DNA of 64,000 nucleotides, from positions 496,001-560,000 of the forward strand of contig NZ_SDPO01000003.1 of NCBI RefSeq assembly GCF_004134865.1, read 5' to 3'. Position 1 is the first letter of the stretch; every line of letters starts with the position of its first letter. This document shows, one piece after another, positions 9,001 through 62,666 of the stretch. The position numbers and the translations under genes were made by a program. The notes under the pieces are model-generated. The model had not been told where the DNA came from, searched no databases, and was given only the letters and a program-made list of their open reading frames with translations. Origin of the DNA: Agromyces fucosus. GTDB taxonomy: Bacteria; Actinomycetota; Actinomycetes; Actinomycetales; Microbacteriaceae.

Positions 9001-9121
9001 CGAGCGCCCCGGTGTCGTCGTCGACGGCGCTCGCGCCGACGGGACCGAGCATCGAGAACGCCAGTGCAAGCGTGGCGACCCCGAAGATGAGGCGATTGGG
9101 AATGCGATGGGTTCCAGCCAT
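6002..9121 (-). CDS. secreted M14 family zinc carboxypeptidase
   Basis: A 1039-residue exported metallocarboxypeptidase. The ATG at 9121 (MAGTHRIPNRL) follows AAGGAG at good spacing and opens a signal peptide (hydrophobic about residues 10-30, then GASAVDD). The M14 domain spans roughly residues 110-420: zinc ligands His184 and Glu187 in STQHAREW, His317 in NYHSFG, and the general-base Glu388 in TLAWTPELGEG are all present. The C-terminal 600 residues include a probable beta-sandwich of the immune-inhibitor-A type (STGQGTTSFENGDTGGW) and end in WMGRALDHLLD. Likely role: removal of C-terminal residues from peptides outside the cell, complementing the nearby subtilase. It is alone in its transcription unit. 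Confidence 0.92.
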   Translation of the reverse strand: MAGTHRIPNRLIFGVATLALAFSMLGPVGASAVDDDTGALDMYTADVSSAEAAEIAAAGFDVAQSTVTDSGVSIDLVLTADEAKGLQAHGLDVKVKKNKDGKSARQLADEQATEGYTVWRSWDEPGGIRDELYRLAKQNPQLVKLEVLGHTYEGREIIALKLTQGARGQADGTRPGVLYSSTQHAREWISTEVNRRLLNYYIDGWRTNDKEIKDLLKNNELWFVLVANPDGYQYTFDTERLWRKNLRDNDNDGQVTRADGVDPNRNYPEHFGWDEEGSSSQSSSDTYRGPSAGSEPETQAMMSLFDRADLSFQVNYHSFGQWLLYAEGWQTGTPTADDPIYYALSGNRDEPAIPDFEPGLSSDVLYVTNGETTDFAHSQEGTLAWTPELGEGLPAGGGFVFPDDEAQVQAEFERALPFALDVAKSAADPANPVSHLGLETKPFYLQSDDTYKDGLPQVNLTFDYSYGDPQEVRVIAKRSLGDVTLKYSINDGPAVAAPTEEWTGGDRYGGKTGVYFHTMRGVVTGTTPGDDVEVWFEGGGESSDSFTYKAVEESTDDVLIMAAEDYTGASPAQAGGPNYLDYYQDALDANGTGYDVYDVDARNRTAPDALGVLSHYDAVIWYTGEDIVTREAGWPGGNASRLAMDNTLEVRDFLNEGGQVLYTGKYAGSQYAAAGVTGNQLYDPTAANAPCRTSEGILERCRPLGGSGDSMNDTMQYWLGAYLVVDDAGTTDDGLLDVLGVDTPFSGLEWGFNGADSADNQDHSNSFITTSGILDPAVYPQFESWVAGRWDREGGPFEPHTGDAYAYSQIGDVSYKRLTNTLTVPAGGATMSFWASYDTEADWDHLAVEARPAGGEDWTTLPDVNGNTTQSTGESCPAGWRDLHPQLDHYQTLDVAATTCTSTGTTGEWWADSGNSGGWQQWSVDLSAYAGGSVELSIAYISDWSTQGLGVFVDDIEVSTGQGTTSFENGDTGGWSIAGPPPGSGPNPNNFIITTAAGFPEAAVVATPGSLMAGFGFEGIADAATRADWMGRALDHLLD

Positions 9122-9224
9122 GACGACTCCTTCGGTCCGTCTTCGGCCAGAACGGGAGTGACGACGTCGTCTCGGGTGCCTGATGCTCGTCACAACTCTG
9201 TGCTCACTGCGGACCCTCAGGGGT

Positions 9225-9254
9225 TAGCCTCCTGCGACCCGCCGCGGCTGTCAA
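9225..9254 (-). promoter_or_regulatory. possible promoter of the carboxypeptidase gene
   Basis: On the reverse strand TTGACA (9254-9249) is followed 18 nt later by AGGCTA (9230-9225), about 105 nt before the start codon. The -35 is perfect but the -10 is weak. Confidence 0.35.
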
Positions 9255-9299
9255 GTCCCCCATGGGCTGACGACGTTCGCCGTGCCGGTCGCCCGCGGA

Positions 9300-9339
9300 G
9301 ACGACGATGCCCGCCGGCACCGAGGTGCGGGCGGGCATC
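9300..9339 (-). terminator. terminator hairpin of the ABC exporter operon
   Basis: Arms 9300-9318 (GACGATGCCCGCCGGCACC) and 9321-9339 pair with one mismatch. The hairpin lies 13 nt past the ABC stop codon. No T-tract follows. Confidence 0.7.
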
Positions 9340-38974: not shown

Positions 38975-39964
38975 ATGCAGACTCGCACCCTCGGCCGCAC
39001 CGCCCGAACGGTCTCGGTCATCGGCCTCGGCACCTGGCAGCTCGGCGCCGACTGGGGCGAGGTCGCCGAGGGCGACGCCTTCGCCGTGCTCGACGCGGCG
39101 CACGACGCCGGCGTCACGTTCTTCGACACGGCCGATGTCTACGGCGACGGGCGGAGCGAATCGCTCATCGGCGCTTGGCTCCGAGCGAATCCGGGCTCGG
39201 GCGTCACCGTCGCCACGAAGATGGGCCGGCGGATGCCGCAGGAGCACGCCAACTACTCGGCCGAGCACTTCCGGGGCTGGGTCGACCGCTCACGCGCGAA
39301 CCTCGGCGTCGAGACGCTCGACCTCGTGCAGCTGCACTGCCCGCCGACGACCGTCTACGACGACGACCGGGTCTTCGACGCCCTCGACGCCCTCGTCGAC
39401 GACGGCTCGATCGCCGCCTACGGCGTGAGCGTCGAACGCGTCGACGAGGCGCTCGCCGCGATCGCACGGCCGAATGTCGCGACCGTGCAGATCATCCTCA
39501 ACGCGTTCCGGCTGAAGCCGCTCGACGAGGTGCTGCCGGCCGCCGTCGCGGCGGGCGTGGGCATCATCGCCCGGGTACCGCTCGCGAGCGGGCTGCTCTC
39601 CGGCCGGTACACGAGCGACACGATCTTCGCCGCGAACGACCACCGCAGCTTCAACCGGCACGGCGAGGCCTTCGACGTCGGCGAGACCTTCTCGGGGGTC
39701 GACTACGAGACGGGCGTGCGCGCGGCATCCGAATTCACCGAGCTCGCTCGCGACGCCGCCCCGACCGCGACGCCCGCGCAGGTCGCCCTCGCCTGGATCG
39801 CGTCGCAGCCGGGCGTGAGCTCGGTGATCCCCGGTGCGCGCTCGCCGCAGCAGGCCCGCGCGAACGCAGAGGCCGGGTCGCTGCAGTTGCCGCCGTCGTT
39901 CGACGGGGCGGTGCGCGAGCTCTACGACCGCGAGATCCGGGCCGCCGTGCACGAGCGCTGGTAG
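38975..39964 (+). CDS. aldo/keto reductase (YajO/Tas-like type)
   Basis: A 329-residue AKR: LGRTARTVSVIGLGTWQLG at the start, tetrad Asp51, Tyr56 (DTADVYGDG), Lys82 (ATKMG) and His121 (VQLHCPP), GVSVERVDEAL, ASGLLSGRY and the C-terminal SVIPGARSPQQARANA. Substrates are probably carbonyl compounds; a physiological role is not readable. ATG 38975 sits 4 nt after GGAG. It is divergent from the GyrI-like gene and followed by 540 bp of repeat-bearing intergenic DNA. Confidence 0.92.
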   Translation: MQTRTLGRTARTVSVIGLGTWQLGADWGEVAEGDAFAVLDAAHDAGVTFFDTADVYGDGRSESLIGAWLRANPGSGVTVATKMGRRMPQEHANYSAEHFRGWVDRSRANLGVETLDLVQLHCPPTTVYDDDRVFDALDALVDDGSIAAYGVSVERVDEALAAIARPNVATVQIILNAFRLKPLDEVLPAAVAAGVGIIARVPLASGLLSGRYTSDTIFAANDHRSFNRHGEAFDVGETFSGVDYETGVRAASEFTELARDAAPTATPAQVALAWIASQPGVSSVIPGARSPQQARANAEAGSLQLPPSFDGAVRELYDREIRAAVHERW

Positions 39965-40507
39965 CGCCCCGGCGGCCCGTCACCCCGGCGCAGCCGCGCC
40001 GCCGCGCATCGACGCCGCTCCCGCCGCGCCTCGCCCTGGCGCAGCGGCGCCGCCGCGCCTCGCCGCCCCGCGCCATGGGCTGGGGATCACTCGTGTCGCA
40101 CGGGACCACTCGTATCGCACAGGACCCTGGATATCACGGGTCCCGTGCGACACGAGTGGTCCTGAGTTCTCCCGGCTGGGGCAGTTCCAACGCCAGCCGG
40201 CCCCAGCACAGCCCGTCAGCCCGTCAGCCCGTCACCCGGCCCGCCCCAGTCCACGCACCTGCCCGCCCGCCCGCTCCGCGACACCGCACCGAGAAATCGG
40301 CGGAAATGCCCCCATTTCGGGTCACAACGTCGATACGCTGCACAGGTGTGGTGTTAGCGGGGGGCTGACAGTGACGATTTCGGGTGCATCGCGCGGCGAC
40401 TCATCGCCGTGCCCTGCGAACAGGCCCGGCGTTGCCGCGAACCTCCTTCGACCCGTCGAGCAGACGGGCAGATCCGAACACTCGGTCCGTACGAAGGAAG
40501 GAATCGA
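39965..40507. other. 543-bp intergenic region with several repeats
   Basis: No gene is supported. It contains imperfect GCCGCGCC-rich direct repeats (39987-40075), the long inverted repeat at 40088-40158, three tandem CAGCCCGT units (40209-40232), a small GAAATG/CATTTC hairpin near 40302-40319 and a TACGCT box (40334-40339) that may be the -10 for the next gene. Confidence 0.6.
40088..40158. repeat. long inverted repeat, family A, copy 1
   Basis: CACTCGTGTCGCACGGGACC (40088-40107) is matched by its exact reverse complement at 40139-40158. Between them a degenerate direct copy ACTCGTATCGCACAGGACC (40108-40126) and a GGATATC spacer occur. A second copy of the same arms lies at 49226-49285. Confidence 0.9.
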
Positions 40508-41299
40508 ATGATCACCAAACGAGTCATGGCGTTCGAGCACAGCGGGGCCTCGGGCGGGCAGCTCGAGGCGGGCCGGGGCAGGTTCCGGGTCGACCGGATG
40601 CTCGGTCTCGCGCTCACCGGCCTGATCGTGGCCACGATCGGCATCGCCGGACAGGCGCAGAGCGCCGAGGCGGCCGCCGACCTCTCCCATTCGAAGCAAC
40701 TCGCGATCGCCGAGGTCGGCGGTCAGGTCGGCATCGGCGCGACGGGGCTCGATGTCACGGCCCTCCGGGGGGCCGCGGCAGCGCGTTCGGCGACTGAGGC
40801 GCTACGCGGTGCACAACCGCTCGTCGCCGAGGCGGGCGCCGAACTCGGCGCAGCGGGGGTCGCCGGGCTCGTGTCCTTGAGCACCGCCGTGATCGCCCAG
40901 CTCGGAGCCGGGAGTTCGGCTGCCGCGGTCGTGACGACCGCCGCCGAGCTCCGCGCCGAACAGGGCGCGGTGGGCGCAGCACTCGCGGCGCACCGGCAGG
41001 CGGTCGCCGCGCAGCTCGCCGCAGAGGCGGCGGCGGCCCAGGCGGCGGCCGACGCCGCGGCCCAGCAGGTCGCCGACGAGGGCGACGACTGGTCGGGCGG
41101 GTCGGATGCCGCGGCATCCGCTTCCGGTGAGGCGACGGGCGAGGCCGCTGCGGCCGCCCCCGCCGCGAACCCGTACACGTCCGAGTTCTACCCGGGCCTT
41201 CCGGCTGCACCTCGCGATGAGGACTGCGGGCCGTGCACCGGCAAGGAGATGGTGCCCGTGTACTACAACGGCAAGTACGTCTGGGGCTGCGACGCCTGA
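40508..41299 (+). CDS. membrane-anchored or secreted alanine-rich protein
   Basis: A 263-residue protein. A 35-residue basic N-terminus precedes a membrane/signal segment (LGLALTGLIVATIGIAGQ), then a long Ala-rich, mostly helical region (about 60-200) that could form a coiled coil or rod, a Ser/Ala/Glu linker and a C-terminal head PRDEDCGPCTGKEMVPVYY ending WGCDA with three Cys. ATG 40508 follows AAGGAAGGA. The rod-plus-head layout suggests a surface or septal protein; I do not recognise a named family. It is convergent with the phosphoketolase and followed by a terminator. Confidence 0.8.
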   Translation: MITKRVMAFEHSGASGGQLEAGRGRFRVDRMLGLALTGLIVATIGIAGQAQSAEAAADLSHSKQLAIAEVGGQVGIGATGLDVTALRGAAAARSATEALRGAQPLVAEAGAELGAAGVAGLVSLSTAVIAQLGAGSSAAAVVTTAAELRAEQGAVGAALAAHRQAVAAQLAAEAAAAQAAADAAAQQVADEGDDWSGGSDAAASASGEATGEAAAAAPAANPYTSEFYPGLPAAPRDEDCGPCTGKEMVPVYYNGKYVWGCDA

Positions 41300-41314
41300 C
41301 CCGACGGTATTCGC

Positions 41315-41344
41315 GGCGGGCGCTCGGGAGACCGGGCGCCCGCC
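41315..41344. terminator. bidirectional terminator
   Basis: GGCGGGCGCTCGG (41315-41327) pairs with CCGGGCGCCCGCC (41332-41344) with one mismatch and a GAGA loop, between convergent genes. Confidence 0.82.
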
Positions 41345-41366
41345 GTCGTCGTGAGACGGCGGATGG

Positions 41367-43874
41367 CTACGCCGGAGGAGACGGCGCGAAGCGCCAGCCC
41401 GTGATCCAGTCGGGATCCTCGCCGTGCTCGTACGCGTACTCTCGGGCGGCGCTTCGAGCCGCGTGCCATTCGTCGGCGATCTCCGCGATGCCGGTGGCGC
41501 CTTCGAGGCCGGGCACGCGGTGCAGCACGTCGAGCGCCAGCCGGTACCGGTCGAGGTCGTTCAGGTGCAGCATGTCGAACGGCGTGGTCGTGGTGCCGCG
41601 CTCGACGAACCCCCGTACGTGGATGTTCGCGTGGTTCGTGCGCCGGTAGGTGAGCTGGTGGATGAGCGACGGGTAGCCGTGGAACGCGAAGATCACGGGT
41701 GCCGAGCGGGTGAAGATTGCATCGAATCCGGCACCGGGCAGGCCGTGCGGATGGTGCTGCGGGTCCTGCAGGCGCATGAGGTCGACGACGTTCACGAGGC
41801 GCACGCGAAGGTCGGGCAGTCGATCGCGCAGGAGCAGCGCCGCCGCGATCGCCTCGGTCGTCGGCACGTCGCCGGCGCACGCGATCACGACGTCGGGCTC
41901 GGATGCCGCGGCATCCGCTCGGTCGAAGCCGGGCTCGTTGCCCGCCCACTCCCACACGCCGAGACCCGCCTCGACGTGCGCCGCGGCCTCGGCCGGATCG
42001 AGCCACTGCGGTTGCGGCTGCTTGCCGGCCACGACCACGTTGACCCGGTTCTGCGTGTCGAAGGCGTGCCGCATCACCTCGAGCAGCGTGTTCGCGTCGG
42101 GCGGCAGGTAGACGCGCACGGTGTCCGCCTGCTTGTTGACGACGACGTTCAGGAACCCCGGGTCCTGGTGGGAGAAGCCGTTGTGGTCCTGCCGCCACAC
42201 GTGGGAGGAGAGCAGGTAGGTGAGGCTCGCGACGTCGCCCCGCCAGGGCACCTGCTTCGCGGACTCGAGCCACTTCGCGTGCTGGTTGAACATCGAGTCG
42301 ACGATGTGGATGAACGCCTCGTAGCTCGTGATGAGCCCGTGCCGCCCCGTCAGCAGATACCCCTCGAGCATGCCCTGCATGAGGTGCTCGCTGAGCGCCT
42401 CGATGACGCGGCCCTCGCGCGCGAGGTGTTCGTCGAGCGGATGCATCGCCTCCGCCCAGACCCGATCGGTGACCTCGAACACCGCGCCGAGGCGGTTCGA
42501 AGCCACTTCGTCTGGGCCGAAGAGGCGGAAGTCGTCGGGGTTCACGCGCATCACCTCGGCGAGCCACTCGCCGAGCACGCGGGTGGCCTCGGCGGAGTCG
42601 CCGCGCTCGCCGGGGTCGACGGCGACGGCATGCCTGTCCAGCGGCGGGAGTGTGAGCGGGCGGGCGATGCCGCCGTTCACGTGAGCGCTGGTGTTCGCGC
42701 TCATGCGCAGCTCGCCGTCGGGACGCAGGGTGTCGAGGGCCTGCGCCGGGCGCCCCTCGCCGTCGAAGAGCTCCTCGGGGCGGTACGAGCGGAGCCACCC
42801 CTCGAGCATCGCGAGGTGCTCGGGATTCTCGCGCACGCCGGCGAGCGGCACCTGGTGCGCGTGGAACGTGCCCTCGACCTGCACGCCGTCGACGACGCCC
42901 GGGCCGGTCCAGCCCTTCGGGGTGCGCAGCACGATCGCGGGCCAGCGCGGCGCGGTCTCGGCGAACGCGCCGGCCGCGGCATCCGCCCGGATCGCGGCGA
43001 TGCGCTCGTAGGCGACGTCGATCGCGTCGGCCATGCGACCGTGCACGGCCATCGGGTCCTCGCCGTCGAACCCGCCCGTCACGAGCAGCGGCTCGTAGCC
43101 GTTGCCGCGGAAGAAGTCGACGAGCTCCGCCTCGGGGATGCGGGCCAGCAGCGTCGGGTTCGCGATCTTGAACCCGTTCAGGTGCAGGATCGGCAGCACC
43201 GCGCCATCCGTCACCGGGTTCAGGAATGAGTGGCAGCGCCAGCTCGCCGCGAGCGGACCGGTCTCGGCCTCGCCGTCGCCGATGACGCACGCGACCACGA
43301 GGCCCGGGTTGTCGAGTGCCGCGCCGTAGGCGTGCATGAGCGAGTAGCCGAGCTCGCCGCCCTCGTTGATCGAGCCGGGGGTCTCGGGTGCCGCGTGCGA
43401 CGGGATGCCGCCGGGGAACGAGAACTGGCGGAACAGCCGATGCATGCCGTCGCGGTCGGCGGTGACCGCCGGGAACAGCTCGGAGTAGGTGCCGTCGAGC
43501 CAGGTGTTCGCGACCATCGCCGGCCCGCCGTGACCGGGGCCGCAGACGTAGATCGTCGGCGTGCCGCGTTCGACGATCGCCCGATTGAGGTGGGCGTAGA
43601 CGAGGTTCAGTCCGGGGGAGGTGCCCCAGTGGCCGAGCAGGCGCGGCTTGATGTCGCCGGGCTCGAGCGGGCGGGCGAGCAGCGGGTTCGCCATCAGGTA
43701 GATCTGGCCGACGCTCAGGTAGTTCGCGGCGCGCCACCAGGCGTCGACGACCTCGAGCGGCACGGATGCCCCGCGCTGATGCCGTTCGCGTCCGCGCTCT
43801 CCCGGTTCGCGACCGGGTTCGTGTTCGCGCTGCCGGTGCTCCTGGTGCTCGTCGTGCTCGCCTTCCTCGGACAT
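41367..43874 (-). CDS. xfp: phosphoketolase (xylulose-5-P/fructose-6-P)
   Basis: An 835-residue thiamine-diphosphate enzyme that splits xylulose 5-phosphate or fructose 6-phosphate into acetyl phosphate and a shorter sugar phosphate. Motifs: [47 protein letters not shown] and [12 protein letters not shown] in the ThDP-binding half; [12 protein letters not shown] and [11 protein letters not shown] later. Length is near the family's usual 790-830, with about 35 extra N-terminal residues rich in His, Glu and Arg. A later start would remove that extension. No acetate kinase or phosphotransacetylase gene is adjacent. It diverges from the DUF1353 gene. Confidence 0.95.
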
Positions 43875-44078
43875 GGCTTCCCCTGTCGACTCGAGTGCAC
43901 TTCGAGCCTAGGTCGGTCGTGGTGCCGGCACCACCGAGAGTCTCGAGCGGCTCGGCTCGTGCGGTGCCGGCGCCGGCGCGCTTCGCGGCGGCGCTCCTGC
44001 TCGGCTGAGCCCCGACGGCGGTGGTCGGGAGCAGGATGGGCGGTGGGGGAGCGCCCGCCCGAAAGAAGGAGACCCGCG

Positions 44079-44801
44079 ATGCCATTCCTCACCGACGACG
44101 ATCGGCCGCTCGGCGAACTGCTGCTCGCCCAGCGCCCCGCCGACGGGCATCGCTTCCAGGTGCGCGCGCCGTTCGCCTACGTCGACCCGGTGAGCGGGCT
44201 GCGCTACGAGGTGCCGGTGCAGGATGCCGCGGGCGACGACTCCGACCTCGCGTCCGTGCCGAGCGTGCTCTGGGGGCTCGTCGCGAGCTACGGTCGCCAG
44301 TCGGCGCCGGCTCTGCTGCACGACCGCCAGTCGGTGCTCGCCGCACGGCTCGGCGATCGGCAGGCCGCCCTCGCGCAGCGCCGCGTCGACGACCGGGTGT
44401 TCCGCACGGCGCTGCGGGAGCAGCGGGTTCCGCTGCTCCGTGCCGCGGTGATGTGGGCGTGGGTCTCCGCGGATCGAGAGCGGCAGTTCGGCGGTGCCGC
44501 CGGCGCGGTGTTCGTCGGGCAGGCGGTGCTCGGCGGCATCGTCGTGGCCGGGGCATCCGTCGCCGCGTTCTGGAATCCGCTGTGGCTCGCGCTGCTCGTC
44601 GTCGTCGCCGTCGCCGCGTTCGCGTGGGGCCGGCTCGCGGCGCCGCAGCTCGTGCTGGCGTTCTCGATCGGGTGGCTCGGGCCGTTCGTGCTCGTGCAGG
44701 TCGCGGCGGTCGTGCCGTTCCGGCTCGTGGAGGCCGCGGTCGAACTCGTCACGGGCGGCGACCCCGCCGGTGTGTTCCGGCCGACGGTGCGCGGGCGCTG
44801 A
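44079..44801 (+). CDS. membrane protein with N-terminal DUF1353 domain
   Basis: A 240-residue protein. Residues 15-110 follow the DUF1353 pattern (DLASVPSVLWGLVASYGR, APALLHDRQ), a domain often found in phage or plasmid contexts. The C-terminal half has three hydrophobic segments (AVLGGIVVAGASVAAF, LALLVVVAVAAFAW, LAFSIGWLGPFVLVQVAAVV). ATG 44079 follows AAGGAG. No phage genes are near, so this appears to be a host-adapted, membrane-tethered version. Function unknown. Confidence 0.82.
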   Translation: MPFLTDDDRPLGELLLAQRPADGHRFQVRAPFAYVDPVSGLRYEVPVQDAAGDDSDLASVPSVLWGLVASYGRQSAPALLHDRQSVLAARLGDRQAALAQRRVDDRVFRTALREQRVPLLRAAVMWAWVSADRERQFGGAAGAVFVGQAVLGGIVVAGASVAAFWNPLWLALLVVVAVAAFAWGRLAAPQLVLAFSIGWLGPFVLVQVAAVVPFRLVEAAVELVTGGDPAGVFRPTVRGR

Positions 44802-44897
44802 GTCGCCGTACCCTCGCCCCCAAGCGTTCTGACGACGGTTTGCGCCACGGAGGACGGCGAGCGCGTGTCCTCCCACACGCAAGAGGTCGCGTGAGTC

Positions 44898-47099
44898 CTA
44901 CTCGGTGGTCGCGGTGCCCACGGCCTCGGCCGACTGCGGCCAGTGGTGGAACCATCCGGCCCAGATCTCCGCGCGCCGGCCCTTCGGGCGGAGGAGCGCT
45001 CGGCGCGCAGCGAGGTCCTTCGTGAACTCCTCGGTGGCGACCGCGTCGCGGAGCTTCATCGGCGTGGGAACTCGGGCCGCCGCCAGCGTGTTCGCTTCGG
45101 GGTTGTCGGTCCGCGCTGCCACGATCACGGGAACCGGCGCGTAGAGCGGCTCGACGAAGACGAAGATCGCGATGATCAGGAGCGCCACGGCACTCACCAG
45201 CAGCCATTCGAGCGGCGGCCGGCTCCACGCGGCGATCGCGAGCCACACGCAGGCGAAGGCGCCGAAGACGTAGGCCGCACGCGGGATCGAACTCAGCACG
45301 AGCCAGTGCCGGGGCTCGATCGGGCACCGGTCCCACTCGCGCGAGCGCCGAGTGACCGTCGAGAGGCGCTGGTTCAACCAGATGAGCACGGCGAGCGTGA
45401 AGCCCGAGGCGACGAGCCAGCTCCACGGGTTCAGGCCCTCGGGATCGGTCACGAACGAGGCCGCTGCGATCGTGGCGGGCACGGCCTCCGCGACATCCCG
45501 ACCGCCCGGGAAGATGCCGATCAGGAAGCCGATCGCACCGGCGATCCAGCTCGCGAGCGTCGCGAACGCGGCGTAGACGCCCGGCAGGCCGGGCAGGATC
45601 GCGGCGATCACGACGGCCGCGAGCATGTTGATGCCGAGCGACTTCTTGTCGATGACCGAGAGCAGGTTCTCGACCTGCGCGACCGCGACCGGGGCCTTCG
45701 GGAAGTCGGGTCCAAGCAGGTGCCGTGCGGTGGGCTCGACCACCTGGATCGTGTTCTGGAAGTAGACGGAGTGGTCGAGGAAGGGCTGGCTCGTGTTGTG
45801 CACGGCGTGCTCCTCGGGCCCCGTCGAGGTGGAGTCTCCGGGGAAGTAGGCGTTCCGCCACCGTTCGCGACGCCCCGGTGCGGTATCGGCGATGGGGCCC
45901 GCGGAGAACGGGTCCCAGATCGCCCAGTAGTTCGCCCAGTCCACCCTGCCGTCAGCGCCGGCGGCCCGGTTGCGAGCGAGCCAGTCCGACACCGGCGCGT
46001 ACTCGTCGGGGCGGCCGAGCCAACGGTCGCGCCCGAGCAGCACCACCGCGGCCCCGACGGTGGAGAGGCGGCTGACGTTGAAGTCGCTCGGGGTCAGCTC
46101 CTCGAAGAGCGCGAGCGTCGCGACCGCGGCGCCCTGCGAGTGCGCGAAGAGCTGCACGTCGCCGTCGTCGCCGACGAGTTCCTTGGCGCGGGCGAGGGCG
46201 TCGCGCACGACGAGCCGCATGGCCGAGGCGCGCACGGGACGCTCCTTCCACGCGGCGACATCCCCGATCGACTCGATAATGCCGTCGATGAATCCCTGGG
46301 CCACCTTCTTGAACCACGGGATGAGCAGGAGCGGGCTGATGAGCGGCAGGATCGGGGTCAGCACCGTGGCGAGCAGCACGAGGAACAGCCAGATGACGGC
46401 GAAGGCGATCGTGCAGACCACGAGACGCACGCTGTCGATCGCGAGATCGACGAGCTTCGGGAGCTTGCGGGACGCCCCCGGCGCCTTCTTCCAGTGCTGC
46501 ACGAGGGTGTACCAGGGGACGAGCACCATGGTGCCGACGAAGAGGTCGAGGATGCGCCAGATCATGCGCCACATGAAGACGACGGCCCACTGGAAGATCT
46601 GGCCGCGACTCATCGGCACGAAGGATTCCGACCAGCGAGCCTCGATGATGGCGATCCTCTGCACGACGTCGTCGGCCTCGCCGGCGGGTCTGCCCGATGC
46701 CTGAGCGAGTGGTCCGGGGGAGCGCACCGTCGCCGTGATGATCGGCAGGTCGCCCGAGAGGTCGGACTCGAGGATCGCGACGCCGTGCCGCTCGTCGGCG
46801 CCGATCACCCGGTCGCGGGCCAGCCAGTCCATGCGGGCGAGCAGCGGCTCGGCCCACTCGAGCAGGATCTGGCTTCGATACGCGTTGCCCATGCCGTGCA
46901 CGACGACGAGCGCGCGGTCGAAGGCAACGGCTCCGGATGGCGCGGCACGGCGTCCGGCCGTCGAATCGGCGGTGCCGGGCGCTCGGTCGGGGGTGCCGTC
47001 GGCGCTGGCGTCGTCAGCGTCGTCGACGGCGTCGAGGTCGGCGTCCGTCGGCGGCGGGGCTGCTGACTCGTCGGGCGTGGGGCTGGGTGCGATCCGCAT
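44898..47099 (-). CDS. large membrane protein with alpha/beta-hydrolase (lipase-like) motifs
   Basis: A 733-residue protein. A disordered acidic N-terminus (about 1-60) is followed by RALVVVHGMGNAYRSQ, a beta-strand/HGxG-like oxyanion region. Hydrophobic segments (about 165-275: QWAVVFMWRMIWRI, MVLVPWYTLV, LVVCTIAFAVIWLFLVLL, LISPLLLIPWF) come next, then LFAHSQGAAVATLALF, a HSQG nucleophile elbow. A third membrane-rich region lies near 480-640. Thus a hydrolase fold appears interrupted by membrane helices. Start follows GAGGAG. It could be a membrane lipase/esterase; the acid and His of the triad cannot be assigned safely. Convergent with DUF1353. Confidence 0.8.
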   Translation of the reverse strand: MRIAPSPTPDESAAPPPTDADLDAVDDADDASADGTPDRAPGTADSTAGRRAAPSGAVAFDRALVVVHGMGNAYRSQILLEWAEPLLARMDWLARDRVIGADERHGVAILESDLSGDLPIITATVRSPGPLAQASGRPAGEADDVVQRIAIIEARWSESFVPMSRGQIFQWAVVFMWRMIWRILDLFVGTMVLVPWYTLVQHWKKAPGASRKLPKLVDLAIDSVRLVVCTIAFAVIWLFLVLLATVLTPILPLISPLLLIPWFKKVAQGFIDGIIESIGDVAAWKERPVRASAMRLVVRDALARAKELVGDDGDVQLFAHSQGAAVATLALFEELTPSDFNVSRLSTVGAAVVLLGRDRWLGRPDEYAPVSDWLARNRAAGADGRVDWANYWAIWDPFSAGPIADTAPGRRERWRNAYFPGDSTSTGPEEHAVHNTSQPFLDHSVYFQNTIQVVEPTARHLLGPDFPKAPVAVAQVENLLSVIDKKSLGINMLAAVVIAAILPGLPGVYAAFATLASWIAGAIGFLIGIFPGGRDVAEAVPATIAAASFVTDPEGLNPWSWLVASGFTLAVLIWLNQRLSTVTRRSREWDRCPIEPRHWLVLSSIPRAAYVFGAFACVWLAIAAWSRPPLEWLLVSAVALLIIAIFVFVEPLYAPVPVIVAARTDNPEANTLAAARVPTPMKLRDAVATEEFTKDLAARRALLRPKGRRAEIWAGWFHHWPQSAEAVGTATTE

Positions 47100-47183
47100 G
47101 GATTCTCCTCGAGCGAGTGCGTCTCAGCGAACGCTAGCGGCTCGACCGGCCCCGTGTCGCCTGTGCCGTCGCGGAGGTGCAGG

Positions 47184-47513
47184 TCAGTGCGGGCCCTGAG
47201 CCTCCTGCGTCTCCCGGGCTGCCAGTACCTGCACACGGCGCCGGCGCATCGCGGCGTAGACGCCGAGCAAGCGCGGCACCACGACGTATACGGCGAGCGG
47301 CACGACCACCAGGGTCAGTGCGAAGGCGCGGAGCACGGGATGCCACGACTCGGAGACCGGTCCGATGAGGATCATGCCGATGGCGACGAGGGGGAAGATC
47401 GCGAGCCAGGTGATGACGGCGCGCACGTGGATCGACGGCGGGGCGAGGGGAACGGCCGGGGCCGATGCGGTCGTGACGGGACTGGGGGCGCTGCTGCCGA
47501 CGCTGTTGCTCAT
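47184..47513 (-). CDS. small membrane protein divergent from TetR
   Basis: A 109-residue protein with a Ser/Ala/Pro N-terminus and two membrane segments (VITWLAIFPLVAIGMILIG and FALTLVVVPLAVYVVVPRL), ending in a basic cytoplasmic tail (YAAMRRRRVQ). ATG 47513 follows GGAGGAA. It resembles DUF2798-like two-helix membrane proteins that often sit beside TetR genes; assignment is tentative. The operator-rich gap to the TetR gene implies TetR control. Confidence 0.82.
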   Translation of the reverse strand: MSNSVGSSAPSPVTTASAPAVPLAPPSIHVRAVITWLAIFPLVAIGMILIGPVSESWHPVLRAFALTLVVVPLAVYVVVPRLLGVYAAMRRRRVQVLAARETQEAQGPH

Positions 47514-47528
47514 GGTGATTCCTCCGTG

Positions 47529-47592
47529 TTTCCAACTGAATGGTTGCAATTGAACCACACGAGATCAGTATCCACAACTGTTCAGTTGGAAA
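47529..47592. promoter_or_regulatory. operator cluster between membrane protein and TetR genes
   Basis: TTTCCAACTGAA (47529-47540) and TTCAGTTGGAAA (47581-47592) are exact inverted repeats. Within them are CAACTGAATGGTTG (47533-47546), TGGTT-N7-AACCA (47541-47557) and the perfect palindrome CAACTG-TT-CAGTTG (47575-47588). These are good TetR sites. Confidence 0.72.
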
Positions 47593-47597
47593 TTTGC

Positions 47598-47603
47598 TAG
47601 AGT
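47598..47603 (+). promoter_or_regulatory. -10 box for a leaderless TetR mRNA
   Basis: TAGAGT ends 6 nt before the TetR ATG, with no Shine-Dalgarno. The palindrome at 47575-47588 would cover the -35, giving autorepression. Confidence 0.5.
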
Positions 47604-47609
47604 GGCAAC

Positions 47610-48203
47610 ATGGCCTGGGACGTCGAGCGCACGAAACGGCTCCTGCTCGACGCCGCGACCGCGGAGTTCAGCGAGCACGGGTTCGCCGGTGCCCGCATCG
47701 ATCGCATCGCGGCGAACGCCGGCGTCAACAAGGAGCGCATCTACCAGTACTTCGGCAAGAAGCACGAGCTCTTCGCCACCGTGCTCGCCACGCAGTTGCG
47801 CAGCACGATGGACGCCGTCCCGATGACCGGCGAGGGCCCGGCCGCGGCGGGCGACTACGCGGGGCGGCTCTTCGATCACCACGTCGCCGAGGCGACGATC
47901 CCGCGCCTGGTCTTCTGGGAGGGTCTCGAGCGCGGCGAGAGCGCGGCCGTCGATGCCGCACGCGCCGAGTACCACCGCGTGAAGGTCGAGGGGTTCCAGC
48001 GGCTCCTGCCCGGCCTCGATCGGACCCAGGCGGCCGAGCTCCTCCTCACGATCGTCACGCTCGTGAACGCCTGGCCCGTGCTCGGCCACCTCGACGAGCT
48101 GCTCGTCGGAACCGGCGAGGCATCGGCGGCCCGACGCGCGGCGCGCCGCGCCTCGATCGTGCAGACGGTCGAACTCCTCGCCGAGGCGGCGCAGCGGGCG
48201 TAG
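47610..48203 (+). CDS. TetR family transcriptional regulator
   Basis: A 197-residue repressor. The N-terminal HTH is clear: RLLLDAATAEFSEHGFAGARIDRIAANAGVNKERIYQYFGKKHELF. The C-terminal ligand domain includes a TetR_C-like region (FWEGLERGESAAVD, LLLTIVTLVNAWPVLGHL). It probably represses the divergent membrane protein and itself through the CAACTG-type palindromes. Ligand unknown. Confidence 0.93.
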   Translation: MAWDVERTKRLLLDAATAEFSEHGFAGARIDRIAANAGVNKERIYQYFGKKHELFATVLATQLRSTMDAVPMTGEGPAAAGDYAGRLFDHHVAEATIPRLVFWEGLERGESAAVDAARAEYHRVKVEGFQRLLPGLDRTQAAELLLTIVTLVNAWPVLGHLDELLVGTGEASAARRAARRASIVQTVELLAEAAQRA

Positions 48204-48449
48204 ACCGTGCGGGCACGGGCCGCCGAGATCAGGGCGGAGTTCAGGGATAACCCTGATCCGCGGCATCCGGTGCCGCTCGTACTGTGAGTAGCGATCGCCG
48301 CTCCGCGAACCGCAGGGGGAACTGTCACCGCGGAGTGGTCGATCGGATAGCCGGTCAGCACCGAGTCCCGAACACGACGTGCAGGCCGGCTTCCCCCGTT
48401 TCGGGGCACGGGCGGGTTGCGAAGGCAGCCGGCAGAGAAGGGCAGGGCG
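48204..48449 (+). other. structured GC-rich leader before the LGFP gene
   Basis: No gene is supported. The stretch holds a CCCCG-TTT-CGGGG hairpin (48394-48406), paired CCGG segments near 48346 and 48384, and a GAAGGG ribosome site. Structured leaders in front of cell-wall genes in actinobacteria are sometimes c-di-AMP riboswitches; I cannot fit the consensus here. Confidence 0.3.
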
Positions 48450-49193
48450 ATGACCGAACGGATGATGCACCTCAGCCGGCATCGCGACGCCGCACCCGCG
48501 CGGGGCGAGGTGCGCTCCGCGCACGTCGACCGTGCGCGGAGCTGGAGCGACTTCCGCACCGCGGTGCGCTACGACCCCGCGAACCAGCTCCTCCTCGCCG
48601 TGCCGGCGATCAGCGCGAAGCGCGCCGAGCACGCCTGGCTCGGCGAGGCGACGGCGCCGCACACGCGCCTCGGCGAGGGCGAGATGTACCGACGCGAGTT
48701 CGAGCGCGGCTCCGTCTACTGGTCGGCGCGAACCGGCGCCCACGAGGTGCACGGGCCGATCGCCGAGCACTGGCAGGGCGTGGGCGGCGAGACGTCGTTC
48801 CTCGGCTTCCCGACGACCGACGAACAGCCGCTCGCCGCCTCGGAGTTCGGCGGACGACTCCCCGGCGGGTTCGCGCACTTCGAGGGCGGGTCGATCTACT
48901 GGACCCCGGCCCACGGGCCCGCGATCGTGTTCGGCATGGTGCGCGACATCTGGGCACTGCTCGGGTGGGAGCGTTCGGCGCTCGGCCTGCCCGTGCAGGA
49001 CGTCGACCTCGTGCCCGCGACCGGCGTGCTCCGCGGCGTCTTCGAGCACGGCACGGTGGAGTGGTCGTCGTCGACCGGCCCCGTCGTGGTCATCGATCCG
49101 TCGGGCGACGATCCCGATGCGGTCGGCGCACTCGACGCCGTCGATGAGGACACGCTCGACCGGCTCCGCTCGGACTTCGCGCCCGAGGCCTGA
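48450..49193 (+). CDS. LGFP-repeat protein
   Basis: A 247-residue protein with several LGFP-type repeats: AWLGEATAP (about 62-70), TSFLGFPTTDEQ (116-125) and ALGLPVQDV (177-185), each followed by an aromatic/Gly segment such as FEGGSIYWTP or FERGSVYWSA. LGFP modules in actinobacterial enzymes and S-layer proteins are thought to bind cell-wall components. No signal peptide is seen at ATG 48450 (MTERMMHLSRHRD), which is odd for this domain; an in-frame start at 48417 does not add one. C-terminus acidic. Function uncertain. Confidence 0.82.
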   Translation: MTERMMHLSRHRDAAPARGEVRSAHVDRARSWSDFRTAVRYDPANQLLLAVPAISAKRAEHAWLGEATAPHTRLGEGEMYRREFERGSVYWSARTGAHEVHGPIAEHWQGVGGETSFLGFPTTDEQPLAASEFGGRLPGGFAHFEGGSIYWTPAHGPAIVFGMVRDIWALLGWERSALGLPVQDVDLVPATGVLRGVFEHGTVEWSSSTGPVVVIDPSGDDPDAVGALDAVDEDTLDRLRSDFAPEA

Positions 49194-49225
49194 CCGCCCG
49201 AGGCCCGGCAGGGCGCGGCATCCGC

Positions 49226-49285
49226 GGACCACTCGTGTCGCACGGGACCATGGATATCCGGGGTCCCGTGCGACACGAAGGGTCC
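49226..49285. repeat. long inverted repeat, family A, copy 2
   Basis: TCGTGTCGCACGGGACC (49233-49249) pairs exactly with GGTCCCGTGCGACACGA (49262-49278); outer GGACC/GGTCC extend it. The centre holds the palindrome GGATATCC (49252-49259). The arms match the repeat at 40088-40158. Confidence 0.9.
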
Positions 49286-49331
49286 CGACCGGCCCACGGG
49301 TGCGTGCTCGGCGACGTGACAGACTCGACGG

Positions 49332-51866
49332 GTGACCCCGACCCTGCCTGAGCTCGCGCCGAGCCCGTACGACGCCGACGAGATGTACCTCGCCTTCGTC
49401 GACTGGGCAGAGGGCCGGGACCTCTCGCTCTATCCCGCGCAGGACGAGGCGATCGTCGAGATCGTCTCCGGAGCGAACGTCATCCTCTCCACCCCCACGG
49501 GCACCGGCAAGTCGCTCGTGGCCGTCGCGGCCCACGCGGCATCCCTCGCCCGCGGCGGGCGCAGCTACTACACGGCGCCCATCAAGGCCCTCGTCTCCGA
49601 GAAGTTCTTCCAGCTCGTCGAGGTCTTCGGCGCGATGAACGTCGGCATGGTGACCGGCGACAGCTCGGTCAACCCGGATGCCCCGATCATCTGCTGCACC
49701 GCCGAGATCCTCGCGAACCTGGCACTGCGGCACGGGCCCGACGCCGACGTCGACCAGGTCGTCATGGACGAGTTCCACTACTACGGCGACCCCGACCGCG
49801 GCTGGGCCTGGCAGGTGCCGCTGCTCACGCTGCACCGGGCGCAGTTCGTGCTCATGTCGGCGACGCTCGGCGACGTCACCGCGATCGCCGTCGACCTGAA
49901 ACGGCGCACGGGCCGTGAGACCGCACTCGTCACCGGCGTCGACCGCCCGGTGCCCCTGCACTTCTCGTACGCGAAGACCCCTGTGCAGGAGACGGTCGAG
50001 GAGCTCATCGAGACGCGCCAGGCCCCCGTCTACATCGTGCACTTTTCGCAGGCCGCGGCGATGGAGCGGGCGCAGGCTCTCTCGTCGATCCGCGTGGTCA
50101 CGCGCGAGCAGCGCGACGAGATCGCCGAGGCGCTCGGCGGGTTCCGCTTCAACACCGCCTTCGGCAAGACCCTCTCGCGACTCGTGCGCGCGGGTATCGG
50201 CGTGCACCACGCCGGCATGCTGCCGCGGTACCGGCGGCTCGTCGAGACGCTCGCGCAGCGTGGGCTGCTGCGCGTCATCTGCGGCACCGACACGCTCGGC
50301 GTCGGCATCAACGTGCCGATCCGCACGGTGCTCATCACCGCGCTCGCCAAGTTCGACGGACAGCGGATGCGCCAGCTCACGGCGCGCGAATTCCACCAGG
50401 TCGCGGGGCGGGCGGGGCGGGCCGGCTACGACACCGCCGGCACGGTCGTCGTGCTCGCGCCCGAGCACGAGATCGAGAACGAGGCATCCGTCCGCAAGGC
50501 GGGCGACGACCCGAAGAAGCTCAAGAAGATCGTGCGCAAGAAGGCGCCGGCGGGTCAGATCACGTGGGGCGAGGCCTCGTACGAGCGACTCGTCGCGGCG
50601 GAGCCCGAGCCGCTCGTGCCGCAACTGAAGCTCACCGCGGCGATGCTGATCAACGTGATCGCCCGCGGGGGAGATGTGATCGGCGACATCCGCTCGCTCG
50701 TCTTCGACAACCACGAACCGCGTGCGCGGAAGTTCGAGCTCGCGCGCCGCGCGCTCGAGATCTTCCGCACCCTGCGTGACGCCGGCGTCGCCGAGCTGCT
50801 GCCGCCGTCGGGTGGGGGACTGCCGATCGTGCGACTCACGGTCGACCTGCAGCCGAACTTCGCGCTGAATCAGCCGCTGTCGCCGTTCGCGCTCGCCGCG
50901 ATCGAGCTGCTCGATCCCGAGGCCACTGCAGAGAACGGCGTCGGCACCGGCCACTACGCGCTCGACGTCGTGAGCGTCATCGAGTCGACCCTCGACGACC
51001 CGCGCCCGATCCTCTCCCAGCAGCAGTTCAAGGCGCGCGGCGAGGCGATCGGCCGCATGAAGCAGGACGGCATCGAGTACGACGAGCGCATGGAGCTCGT
51101 CGAGCTCGTCACCTGGCCGAAGCCGCTCGACGAACTGCTCGCCCAGTCGTTCGAGGTCTTCGCGTCCAGCCAGCCGTGGGTGCGCGATTTCGAGCTCTCG
51201 CCGAAGTCGGTCGTGCGCGACATGTTCGAACGCAGCATGTCGTTCGGAGAATACGTCGGCTTCTACCAGCTCGCGCGTAGCGAGGGCCTCGTGCTGCGCT
51301 ACCTCTCCGACGCATTCAGGGCGATCCGCCAGACGGTGCCGACCGAGGCGAAGAACGAGGAGCTGCTCGACATCATCGAGTGGCTCGGCGAACTCGTGCG
51401 CCAGGTCGACTCGAGCCTCGTCGACGAGTGGAACGAGCTCATCGACCCCACCGCGCACCTCCCTGAAGACGAGGTCGCGGTCGTGCCGCCGGCCCCGCCG
51501 TCGGTCGTGACCAATCGCCGCGCCTTCACCGTGCTCGTGCGCAACGAGCTCTTCCGCCGCGTGCAGCTCGCGGCCCTCGAGCGCGACGACGACCTCGCCG
51601 AGCTCGACCCCGAGGCGGGCTGGGCCGACGCCCTCGACCGGTACTACGCCGAGCACGACGAGATCGGCACCGGGCCCGCGGCCCGATCGCCGCGACTGGT
51701 CGCGATCGACGAGTCGGATGCCGCGGGCGGCACGTGGCGCGTCGAGCAGACGATCGACGACCCCGCGGGCGACCACGACTGGCGCATCCGTGCCGAGGTC
51801 GACCTCGACGCCTCGGCCGAAGAGGGCGCGGCGGTCGTGCGCGTCACCGAGGTCGTGCGACTATAG
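49332..51866 (+). CDS. Ski2-like DEAD/DEAH-box helicase with DUF3516 region
   Basis: An 844-residue superfamily-2 helicase. Walker A TPTGTGKS with Lys60, motif II DEFH (146-149), motif III SAT, and C-terminal motifs GVHHAGMLPRYRR, GTDTLGVGINVPIRTV and QVAGRAGRAGYD. The remaining 400 residues match the DUF3516-type helical region (DEWNELIDPTAHLPEDE). Mtr4/Ski2 relatives unwind RNA for decay; the bacterial enzyme's substrate is not established. GTG 49332 lies 6 nt after CAGACT with no Shine-Dalgarno, so it may be leaderless. It stands alone. Confidence 0.92.
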   Translation: MTPTLPELAPSPYDADEMYLAFVDWAEGRDLSLYPAQDEAIVEIVSGANVILSTPTGTGKSLVAVAAHAASLARGGRSYYTAPIKALVSEKFFQLVEVFGAMNVGMVTGDSSVNPDAPIICCTAEILANLALRHGPDADVDQVVMDEFHYYGDPDRGWAWQVPLLTLHRAQFVLMSATLGDVTAIAVDLKRRTGRETALVTGVDRPVPLHFSYAKTPVQETVEELIETRQAPVYIVHFSQAAAMERAQALSSIRVVTREQRDEIAEALGGFRFNTAFGKTLSRLVRAGIGVHHAGMLPRYRRLVETLAQRGLLRVICGTDTLGVGINVPIRTVLITALAKFDGQRMRQLTAREFHQVAGRAGRAGYDTAGTVVVLAPEHEIENEASVRKAGDDPKKLKKIVRKKAPAGQITWGEASYERLVAAEPEPLVPQLKLTAAMLINVIARGGDVIGDIRSLVFDNHEPRARKFELARRALEIFRTLRDAGVAELLPPSGGGLPIVRLTVDLQPNFALNQPLSPFALAAIELLDPEATAENGVGTGHYALDVVSVIESTLDDPRPILSQQQFKARGEAIGRMKQDGIEYDERMELVELVTWPKPLDELLAQSFEVFASSQPWVRDFELSPKSVVRDMFERSMSFGEYVGFYQLARSEGLVLRYLSDAFRAIRQTVPTEAKNEELLDIIEWLGELVRQVDSSLVDEWNELIDPTAHLPEDEVAVVPPAPPSVVTNRRAFTVLVRNELFRRVQLAALERDDDLAELDPEAGWADALDRYYAEHDEIGTGPAARSPRLVAIDESDAAGGTWRVEQTIDDPAGDHDWRIRAEVDLDASAEEGAAVVRVTEVVRL

Positions 51867-59518: not shown

Positions 59519-59631
59519 GCCGCCGTTCCTGTCTCCGAGGCGCGTCACGCCGTCACGCCGTGACGTCGTCACGGTCTCACGCCGTCACGCCCTCACGCCC
59601 TCACGCCTTGCGTGTCGCCTGTCGCGTTCAC

Positions 59632-59695
59632 GAGGAGATCTGCGATTCCGAGGAGGGAACTCGCGAAATCCCTCCTCGGAATCGCAGATGTCCTC
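59632..59695. repeat. long inverted repeat, family B
   Basis: A 27-nt arm beginning GAGGAGATCTGCGATTCC (59632-59658) pairs with 59669-59695 with one mismatch; the loop is ACTCGCGAAA. It looks like an exceptionally stable hairpin, different in sequence from family A. Confidence 0.9.
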
Positions 59696-59823
59696 TCGAT
59701 CTGAACGAGCGCGGCTCTGCGAGCACGTACCTCCCGGCCTCGACGAGCGCGCCGGTCTCGGCCTCCACAGCACGCGCCTCCCGGCCTCGACGAGCACGCG
59801 CGCCGCAGCGGCATCCCAAGCCC

Positions 59824-62588: not shown

Positions 62589-62666
62589 GGTCGAGTAGCG
62601 CCTGACGCGGTGCGTATCGGGACCCGTCGCGGGATCTCGATACGCGCCGCGGGCGGTGCTCCTCGA
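62589..62666. repeat. palindromic intergenic element, family C
   Basis: GCGTATCG (62612-62619) and CGATACGC (62638-62645) form the core, with flanking GTCGAGTAGCGCC (62590-62602) and GGTGCTCCTCGA (62655-62666) partly complementary. Elements pairing CGATACGC with CTACTCGAC are, from memory, common in Microbacteriaceae intergenic DNA. Confidence 0.6.

Follow-up and report, generated by a model that had tools for sequence, protein, structure and literature searches.

A palindrome family dispersed in Agromyces and its predicted pairing with an AbiEi-like protein

Two palindromes in the window

We analysed a window of 64,000 nucleotides from Agromyces fucosus (contig NZ_SDPO01000003.1, positions 496,001 to 560,000), in which two intergenic copies of a 62-bp palindrome are found. 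Elsewhere in the genome (G000), copies of this palindrome flank an AbiEi-like gene on either side, and the palindromes are read below as candidate DNA sites of its protein. Positions given without a genome or locus handle are those of the window, and its features are as follows.

40089..40107, + strand: extra direct unit of 19 bp, outside the copy 1 palindrome; exact 19-mer match, and the 19-bp step recurs in the array of locus L013
40102..40163, no strand: copy 1, 62-bp palindrome with four half-sites (outer and inner GGACC, inverted); arm matches and a model hit
49225..49286, no strand: copy 2, 62-bp palindrome of copy 1's family; orthologous copies in G009 and G045
38975..39964, + strand: gene preceding copy 1, aldo/keto reductase by sequence reading; home-made gene call
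40508..41299, + strand: gene following copy 1, without Pfam match; home-made gene call
48450..49193, + strand: gene preceding copy 2, LGFP-repeat protein; home-made gene call and Pfam
49332..51866, + strand: gene following copy 2, helicase by sequence reading

The 19-mer ACTCGTGTCGCACGGGACC matches exactly at 40089-40107 (+), 40139-40157 (-) and 49231-49249 (+), and with two mismatches at 40108-40126 (+) and 49262-49280 (-). These are five matches at up to three mismatches where 0.19 are expected, a number attained by none of 100 shuffles, and the inverted-repeat family that a preliminary description had reported here from two intergenic copies is real. Its arms had been called exact inverted pairs; this holds for copy 1, between the extra unit and the right arm, but the right arm of copy 2 has two mismatches. 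The GGATATC-containing centre was rightly described, with GATATC the axis of both copies (40130-40135 and 49253-49258), as was the extra direct unit at copy 1, which is one more 19-bp unit outside the palindrome. The scan consensus of the 62-bp palindrome is GGGACCACTCGTGTCGCACGGGACCnnnGATATCnnnGGTCCCGTGCGACACGAGTGGTCCC.

The product names aldo/keto reductase and helicase are our own reading. An orthologue of the reductase-like gene adjoins a palindrome copy in G009 and G057 too, and the N-terminal 200 aa of the helicase-like gene have matches in 57 of the 60 genomes of the genus. A search of the window revealed no AbiEi-like gene.

Palindrome family in Agromyces

All 60 Agromyces genomes were searched with the arm, and 19 have at least one match; a laxer model search covered 24 genomes, all 19 of these among them but not G014. 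Copies of the G000 type number 36 in five of the 60 genomes: 12 in G000 itself and 24 in four others (14 in G009, 5 in G045, 4 in G057 and 1 in G034), so that the family is neither confined to two copies nor absent from relatives. Among 299 genomes of the bacterial family, under stricter filters, the model matched only in G000, G057 and G088 (E 1.3e-4). The G088 hit (L072) and one in G015 (L111) were judged ordinary hairpins, and the single arm match in G025 (L028) was judged chance.

Nine sites, identified by one or both neighbour genes, are common to several species and hold 25 of the 36 copies. At the site of copy 2, G000, G045 and G009 have the palindrome and G014, G034 and G057 lack it; since G014 and G034 are sisters of G000 in the helicase tree, loss of the element is likely. 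By our home-made gene caller, 25 of 35 G000-type copies lie between co-directional genes, 9 between convergent and 1 between divergent genes, and a few overlap a 3′ gene end. The co-directional bias is weaker in the other palindrome families, where 45 copies of G005, G022 and G027 divide into 19 codirectional, 13 convergent, 9 divergent and 4 inside predicted genes.

Several further palindromes were noticed. Genome G046 has six of a sister sequence, GGGACGGTTC...GAACCGTCCC (L104-L109), with a similar plan and another outer arm. In the window another near-perfect palindrome (25 of 27 pairs, GAGGAG...) lies at 59631-59696; its sequence is different, a 19-bp internal repeat can be made out by eye, and it is perhaps the site of another partner. 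Other palindromic sequences, of the GTCTCGATACGC and GACAGGCTCAGGGA types, occur at about 62595-62661 of the window, at L009:425 and at L121:3295-3361, the GTCTCGATACGC type being present in both the window and L121.

Architecture and conservation

In 89 palindromes scoring at least 19 (scores are out of 27 pairs) the arm contains a direct repeat at lag 19, with identity 0.55 versus 0.29 when shuffled. Identity of at least 0.7 is reached by 72 of 178 arms at lag 19, by 13 at lag 20, and by at most three at any other lag from 12 to 23. Each element therefore consists of two direct half-sites facing two inverted ones. The elements measure 62-95 bp and their ends are sharp; those of the G000 type are GGGACC...GGTCCC, and a GTAG or CGTC end tag was not found in this type, the only one formally tested for it.

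Across 21 orthologous pairs from nine sites, identity is 0.87 in the outer half-site, 0.92 in the inner half-site and 0.87 in the centre, against 0.48 in the spacer, with 0.41/0.34 in the flanks (ungapped). L059, which has a one-base deletion, was left out of both the alignment and this comparison, and L110, found later, is not in the alignment. Because the half-sites are kept while the spacers are free to change, the constraint is, at the level of sequence, the pattern of protein-binding sites, unlike the neutral decay of a dead transposon. Binding sites were among the possibilities raised in the preliminary description, and this one persists as a prediction.

An RNA structure had also been proposed. 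Pairing (88.9% of cells) and covariation (both sides changed in 11 of 25 pairs) do exceed all 500 shuffles, but some pairs frequently fail to form (columns 15/52 in 13 of 34, 22/45 in 20 of 34 and 28/39 in 18 of 34), Rfam gave no match for window positions 36000-62000, and conservation tracks the half-sites, which counts against an RNA role; we do not favour one for these sequences. As for the proposed likeness to REP sequences, the elements are indeed dispersed, extragenic and dyad-symmetric, but the suggested RAYT partner is missing: the Y1/HUH transposase profile PF01797 was found in 0 of 60 genus genomes, with the positive control found in 5 of 14. An identity with RAYT-REP systems is thus excluded, no genome of the 60 having a Y1 transposase.

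AbiEi-like genes and their flanks

The AbiEi-like gene of A. fucosus lies outside the window, at G000:C2:400777-401712, between two copies of the window's palindrome. This gene (L013) and the G009 homologue (L050), which is 77% identical to it, both have copies on either side. Homologues at E<=1e-20 occur in 46 of the 60 Agromyces genomes, at 81 places, two of which are second pieces of one gene, and 70 of the remaining 79 loci were read. A homologue at E<=1e-15 is present in 86 of 246 genomes of the class, where 27 further loci were returned.

For each locus the best palindrome within 350 bp of the gene was scored and compared with control windows at least 700 bp away. With a score of at least 20, 28 of the 70 Agromyces loci have a palindrome upstream, 39 downstream and 19 on both sides, compared with 1 of 183 controls; with at least 19 the counts are 43, 46 and 32, compared with 8 of 183. 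Loci of other actinobacterial genera (27) give 11 upstream and 8 downstream at a score of at least 19, and 0 of 65 controls. A comparison independent of palindromy, with L180 left out, agrees: at least five 14-mers (up to one mismatch) are common to both flanks in 72% of 94 loci, versus 4% of 600 cross-locus and 5% of 123 control pairs, and at least one in 84% of loci versus 19% and 33%. The palindrome sequence varies among loci and agrees within a locus. A weak example is the Tsukamurella tyrosinosolvens plasmid gene WP_074851054.1, where palindrome-like sequences on both sides score 17 of 27; other places in that stretch also score 17-18, and the shared 19-bp repeat was read by eye.

The A. 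fucosus protein has an AbiEi_4 head, and a PADLOC AbiEi profile covers its residues 9-182; AbiEi_4 (PF13338) was matched in 51 of 84 homologues, and the PADLOC profile in 35 of 37 proteins. The rest of the protein is marked by conserved residues: E248, D250, G251, Y255, E273 and R276 are invariant in all 84 homologues, and E205, D237, K254 and K274 are conserved in 83. We take the order E205/D237/E248/D250/K254 to be the residue pattern of a PD-(D/E)XK/Vsr-like nuclease, and infer a C-terminal PD-(D/E)XK fold from it.

Downstream of the gene in L013, at 8792-9300 (G000:C2 ~400.3-400.8 kb), lies an array of many degenerate units, commonly spaced by 19 bp, that looks like the product of stepwise addition. 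The genes (L122, L127, L130, L131 and others) also seem to recur at a few chromosomal positions, with palindromes that differ by species; one such position is about 20-24 kb from dnaA in G005, G022 and G027.

The flanking palindromes could be operators of an AbiEi-like transcription regulator, with the upstream copy serving autoregulation and the scattered copies a regulon. The promoters of AbiEi antitoxin genes carry 23-bp inverted repeats to which the antitoxin itself binds, four of them in the case of Rv2827c (PMC7319586). The constrained half-sites would suit operators, as would the placing of the best upstream palindromes, mostly 100-200 bp ahead of the start (axis to estimated start). 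However, a copy is found downstream no less often than upstream (39 versus 28 of 70 at a score of at least 20); divergent genes enclose only 1 of 35 G000-type copies, although 9 of 45 in G005, G022 and G027; and the 109 arms of the distant genome G568, where the 20 copies read are 95% identical, look like amplification. Nor was the usual toxin seen: in a scan that did not extend to more distant or opposite-strand genes, no AbiEii (DUF1814) appeared in the closest 10 of the 16 neighbours that lie downstream on the same strand, and at 80 of 96 loci no ORF of that strand (at least 110 aa, high GC3) begins in the 150 bp downstream. We consider operators an unlikely explanation.

Dispersal and amplification

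Three patterns taken from gene flanks were searched: those of the G022 and G005 families in the 60 Agromyces genomes, and a distant pattern, a consensus from the flanks of several genes of a distant actinobacterial family, in 18 genomes of that family. The counts include a few arms beside the genes themselves. The G022 arm gave 23 matches in G022, 13 in G010, 10 in G027, 1-2 in three others and none in 54; the G005 arm gave 34 in G005, 1-2 in six others and none in 53. The distant pattern gave 109 matches in G568, 105 in G544, 51 in G453, 8 each in G371 and G552, 2-4 in two others and none in 11. Reversed-pattern controls gave 0 for all three. Each pattern occurs scattered through genomes that have such flanks and hardly at all in others. 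Copies located away from the gene were read in G005, G022 and G027, 45 in all, and every one has both arms, with palindrome scores of 15-26. The 20 copies read in G568 are about 95 bp long and on average 95% identical, with flanks 45% identical, and were therefore recently amplified. Many G568 contigs begin about 100-200 bases from a palindrome copy; the repeats probably break assemblies in this genome.

Such copies might be ordinary MITEs, or solo ends of an IS with its transposase lost or located elsewhere, and the AbiEi-like gene a passenger. Terminal symmetry, sharp ends and many copies are what MITEs would have. Yet arm matches (up to two mismatches) in G000 and G009 all lie in palindromes or adjoining unit arrays, with no IS end seen there; palindromes of many unrelated families, all of one architecture, flank a single gene family; spacers drift where half-sites are preserved; and no clear target-site duplication appears. 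We regard this explanation as very improbable. The palindromes were also tried as brackets of single-gene cassettes, an idea that was dropped, as the L014 pair encloses two genes read as ordinary. No relative was found in viral contigs.

Position relative to the origin

We placed dnaA in ten genomes and tested five one-contig genomes for origin bias, four of them pooled, with copies less than 5 kb from the gene excluded and those within 10 kb of one another merged; G000, in six contigs, was outside this test. The 45 pooled sites lie at a mean of 0.25 of the half-chromosome from dnaA (pooled one-sided Kolmogorov-Smirnov p=5e-9), with 39 of them within 0.5. By genome, the result is p=0.0002 for G005 (n=19), 0.004 for G022 (12), 0.003 for G027 (5) and 0.018 for G009 (9); G022 and G027 have one palindrome family in common, so the genomes are not fully independent. 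G046 was kept out of the pooled test because it lacks a matching gene. We considered a spread by distance from the gene, which is inseparable from distance to dnaA in G005, G022 and G027, whose gene is 20-24 kb from dnaA, and is unsupported in G009, whose gene lies 0.51 Mb away from dnaA and whose copies centre on dnaA (p=0.018) and not on the gene (p=0.45).

The sites might organise the chromosome, like parS near the origin (or matS near the terminus), the protein condensing or positioning the origin region. The pooled bias, the centring on dnaA in G009 and the in situ constraint of half-sites speak for such a role. Against it, gene and sites are absent from close relatives, arm sequence varies between species, nuclease-type residues are conserved, the six G046 sites give no significant bias (p=0.15), and the same picture could arise if old copies survived better in the origin half. 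We think it improbable, a little more so than operators and somewhat less so than MITEs.

Proposed system

The account we judge probable is that the palindromes are dispersed cognate DNA sites of the AbiEi-like protein, with its AbiEi head and predicted PD-(D/E)XK/Vsr-like C-terminus, in a REPIN-like system. Its basis in sequence comprises the family, the flank association, the architecture, the dispersal, the constraint, the origin bias in four genomes and the conserved residues. The AbiEi N-terminal profile is that of a winged-helix antitoxin or regulator, and the winged helix of this protein would bind the four half-sites of each element. The gene, largely inherited vertically and flanked by its own repeats, would at some time have had them copied to intergenic sites, where they then persist; the nuclease region may nick or cut at the palindromes, and repair or recombination, favoured near the replication origin, may occasionally copy an element. 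From this pattern we infer fold, binding, cutting, copying and any host benefit alike.

Several observations weigh against this account. Regarding the fold, weak Pfam matches of 18 C-termini at E<=1 comprise two to DUF559 (best 7e-6) and two to REase_MTES_1575 (0.0013), together with two to DUF6400 and one each to RAP and SnoaL, and profile searches against solved structures give nothing or only E>=0.55. Regarding the pairing, palindromes scoring at least 19 are on both sides in only 32 of the 70 Agromyces loci, on one side in 25 and on neither in 13, and several of the 27 loci from other genera have none. Over 62 of the 70 loci, arm similarity tracks protein similarity only weakly (Mantel r=0.21; 0 of 1000 permutations), the correlation arising mainly above 60% identity. 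G053 has the gene with a variant GTTTCC-type flank and no match to the G022-family arm, while G047 and G016 give 1-2 such matches with no such flank read. The palindrome is present in G045 (5), G057 (4) and G034 (1), which have no close gene homologue (best 34%), and the six sister-type palindromes of G046, the genome lacking significant origin bias, do not match the flanks of its two AbiEi-like loci read (L121, L152); these palindromes without a matching gene would be relics, or sites of another partner. Regarding copying, no insertion event was caught in the act, and no clear target-site duplication appears among 12 copies of G000, 15 of G022 and 24 of G005 (largest excess 0.10) or 20 of G568 (none above 0.12); spacers differ among Agromyces copies, and thus recent copying is not seen there.

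We put forward more tentatively, at somewhat below even chances, that a widespread actinobacterial AbiEi-headed PD-(D/E)XK nuclease recognises and propagates its own four-half-site palindromes around the origin, as REPIN-like mobile DNA whose enzyme is unrelated to RAYT, with a lineage-specific protein-site code and possible host use at the origin. Dispersed bacterial palindromes with a dedicated enzyme have, in the literature consulted, so far been tied to HUH tyrosine transposases, others having no known enzyme. If our account is true, this would be a second, unrelated enzyme-palindrome pairing in Actinomycetes, and persistent intragenomic sequence populations would have evolved more than once. 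It would also give a likely role to proteins annotated 'AbiEi antitoxin', supply many natural pairs of protein and site from which a recognition code could be read, and raise the question of what causes sites to gather around the origin.

Comparison with known systems

No report of a protein-site system of this kind was found in the titles and abstract starts of open-access literature, preprints excluded. A close likeness is to REP/REPIN-RAYT systems (REPtrons) and TIR/TIRYT: their inverted doublets are extragenic and multicopy, the partner gene has repeats of its own on either side, inheritance is vertical, and copies are fewer where the partner is missing (PMC8049555, PMC3733652). In the seven-species clade of A. 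fucosus the two gene-bearing species have 12 and 14 copies and those lacking a close homologue 5 (G045), 4 (G057) and 1 (G034), with the arm pattern giving no match in G014 and, in G025, only the match judged chance. This relation resembles that of E. coli, where REPINs are more numerous in genomes having RAYT (PMC8049555). Unlike REP/REPIN systems, there is no Y1/HUH transposase, the partner being AbiEi-like with a PD-(D/E)XK-type residue set, and the elements, 62-95 bp long, have four half-sites with a spacing of 19 bp and centre on the origin in four genomes.

With AbiE type IV toxin-antitoxin systems such as Rv2827c there is in common an AbiEi-type N-terminal domain, and binding of inverted repeats by AbiEi (PMC7319586); the present genes differ in having no AbiEii among the 10 neighbours scanned, an added nuclease-type C-terminal region, and sites that are on both sides of the gene and dispersed. 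The Vsr-like/DUF559/MTES_1575 proteins, of which MTES_1575 is described as a Vsr REase (PMC3710099), are similar in the pattern E...D...E-x-D-G...KY...EK-x-R and through the weak Pfam matches, but here the region is fused with an AbiEi-type head and has palindromes of its own as partners. A last comparison concerns chromosome organisers. The sites parS of ParB and matS of MatP are palindromic and dispersed in one chromosome region, as these are; unlike them, our protein has no relation to ParB or MatP that we could see, and its gene and sites are gained and lost among close species. Measured against the literature consulted, each known kind of system considered differs from the AbiEi-like gene and its palindromes in a defining feature.

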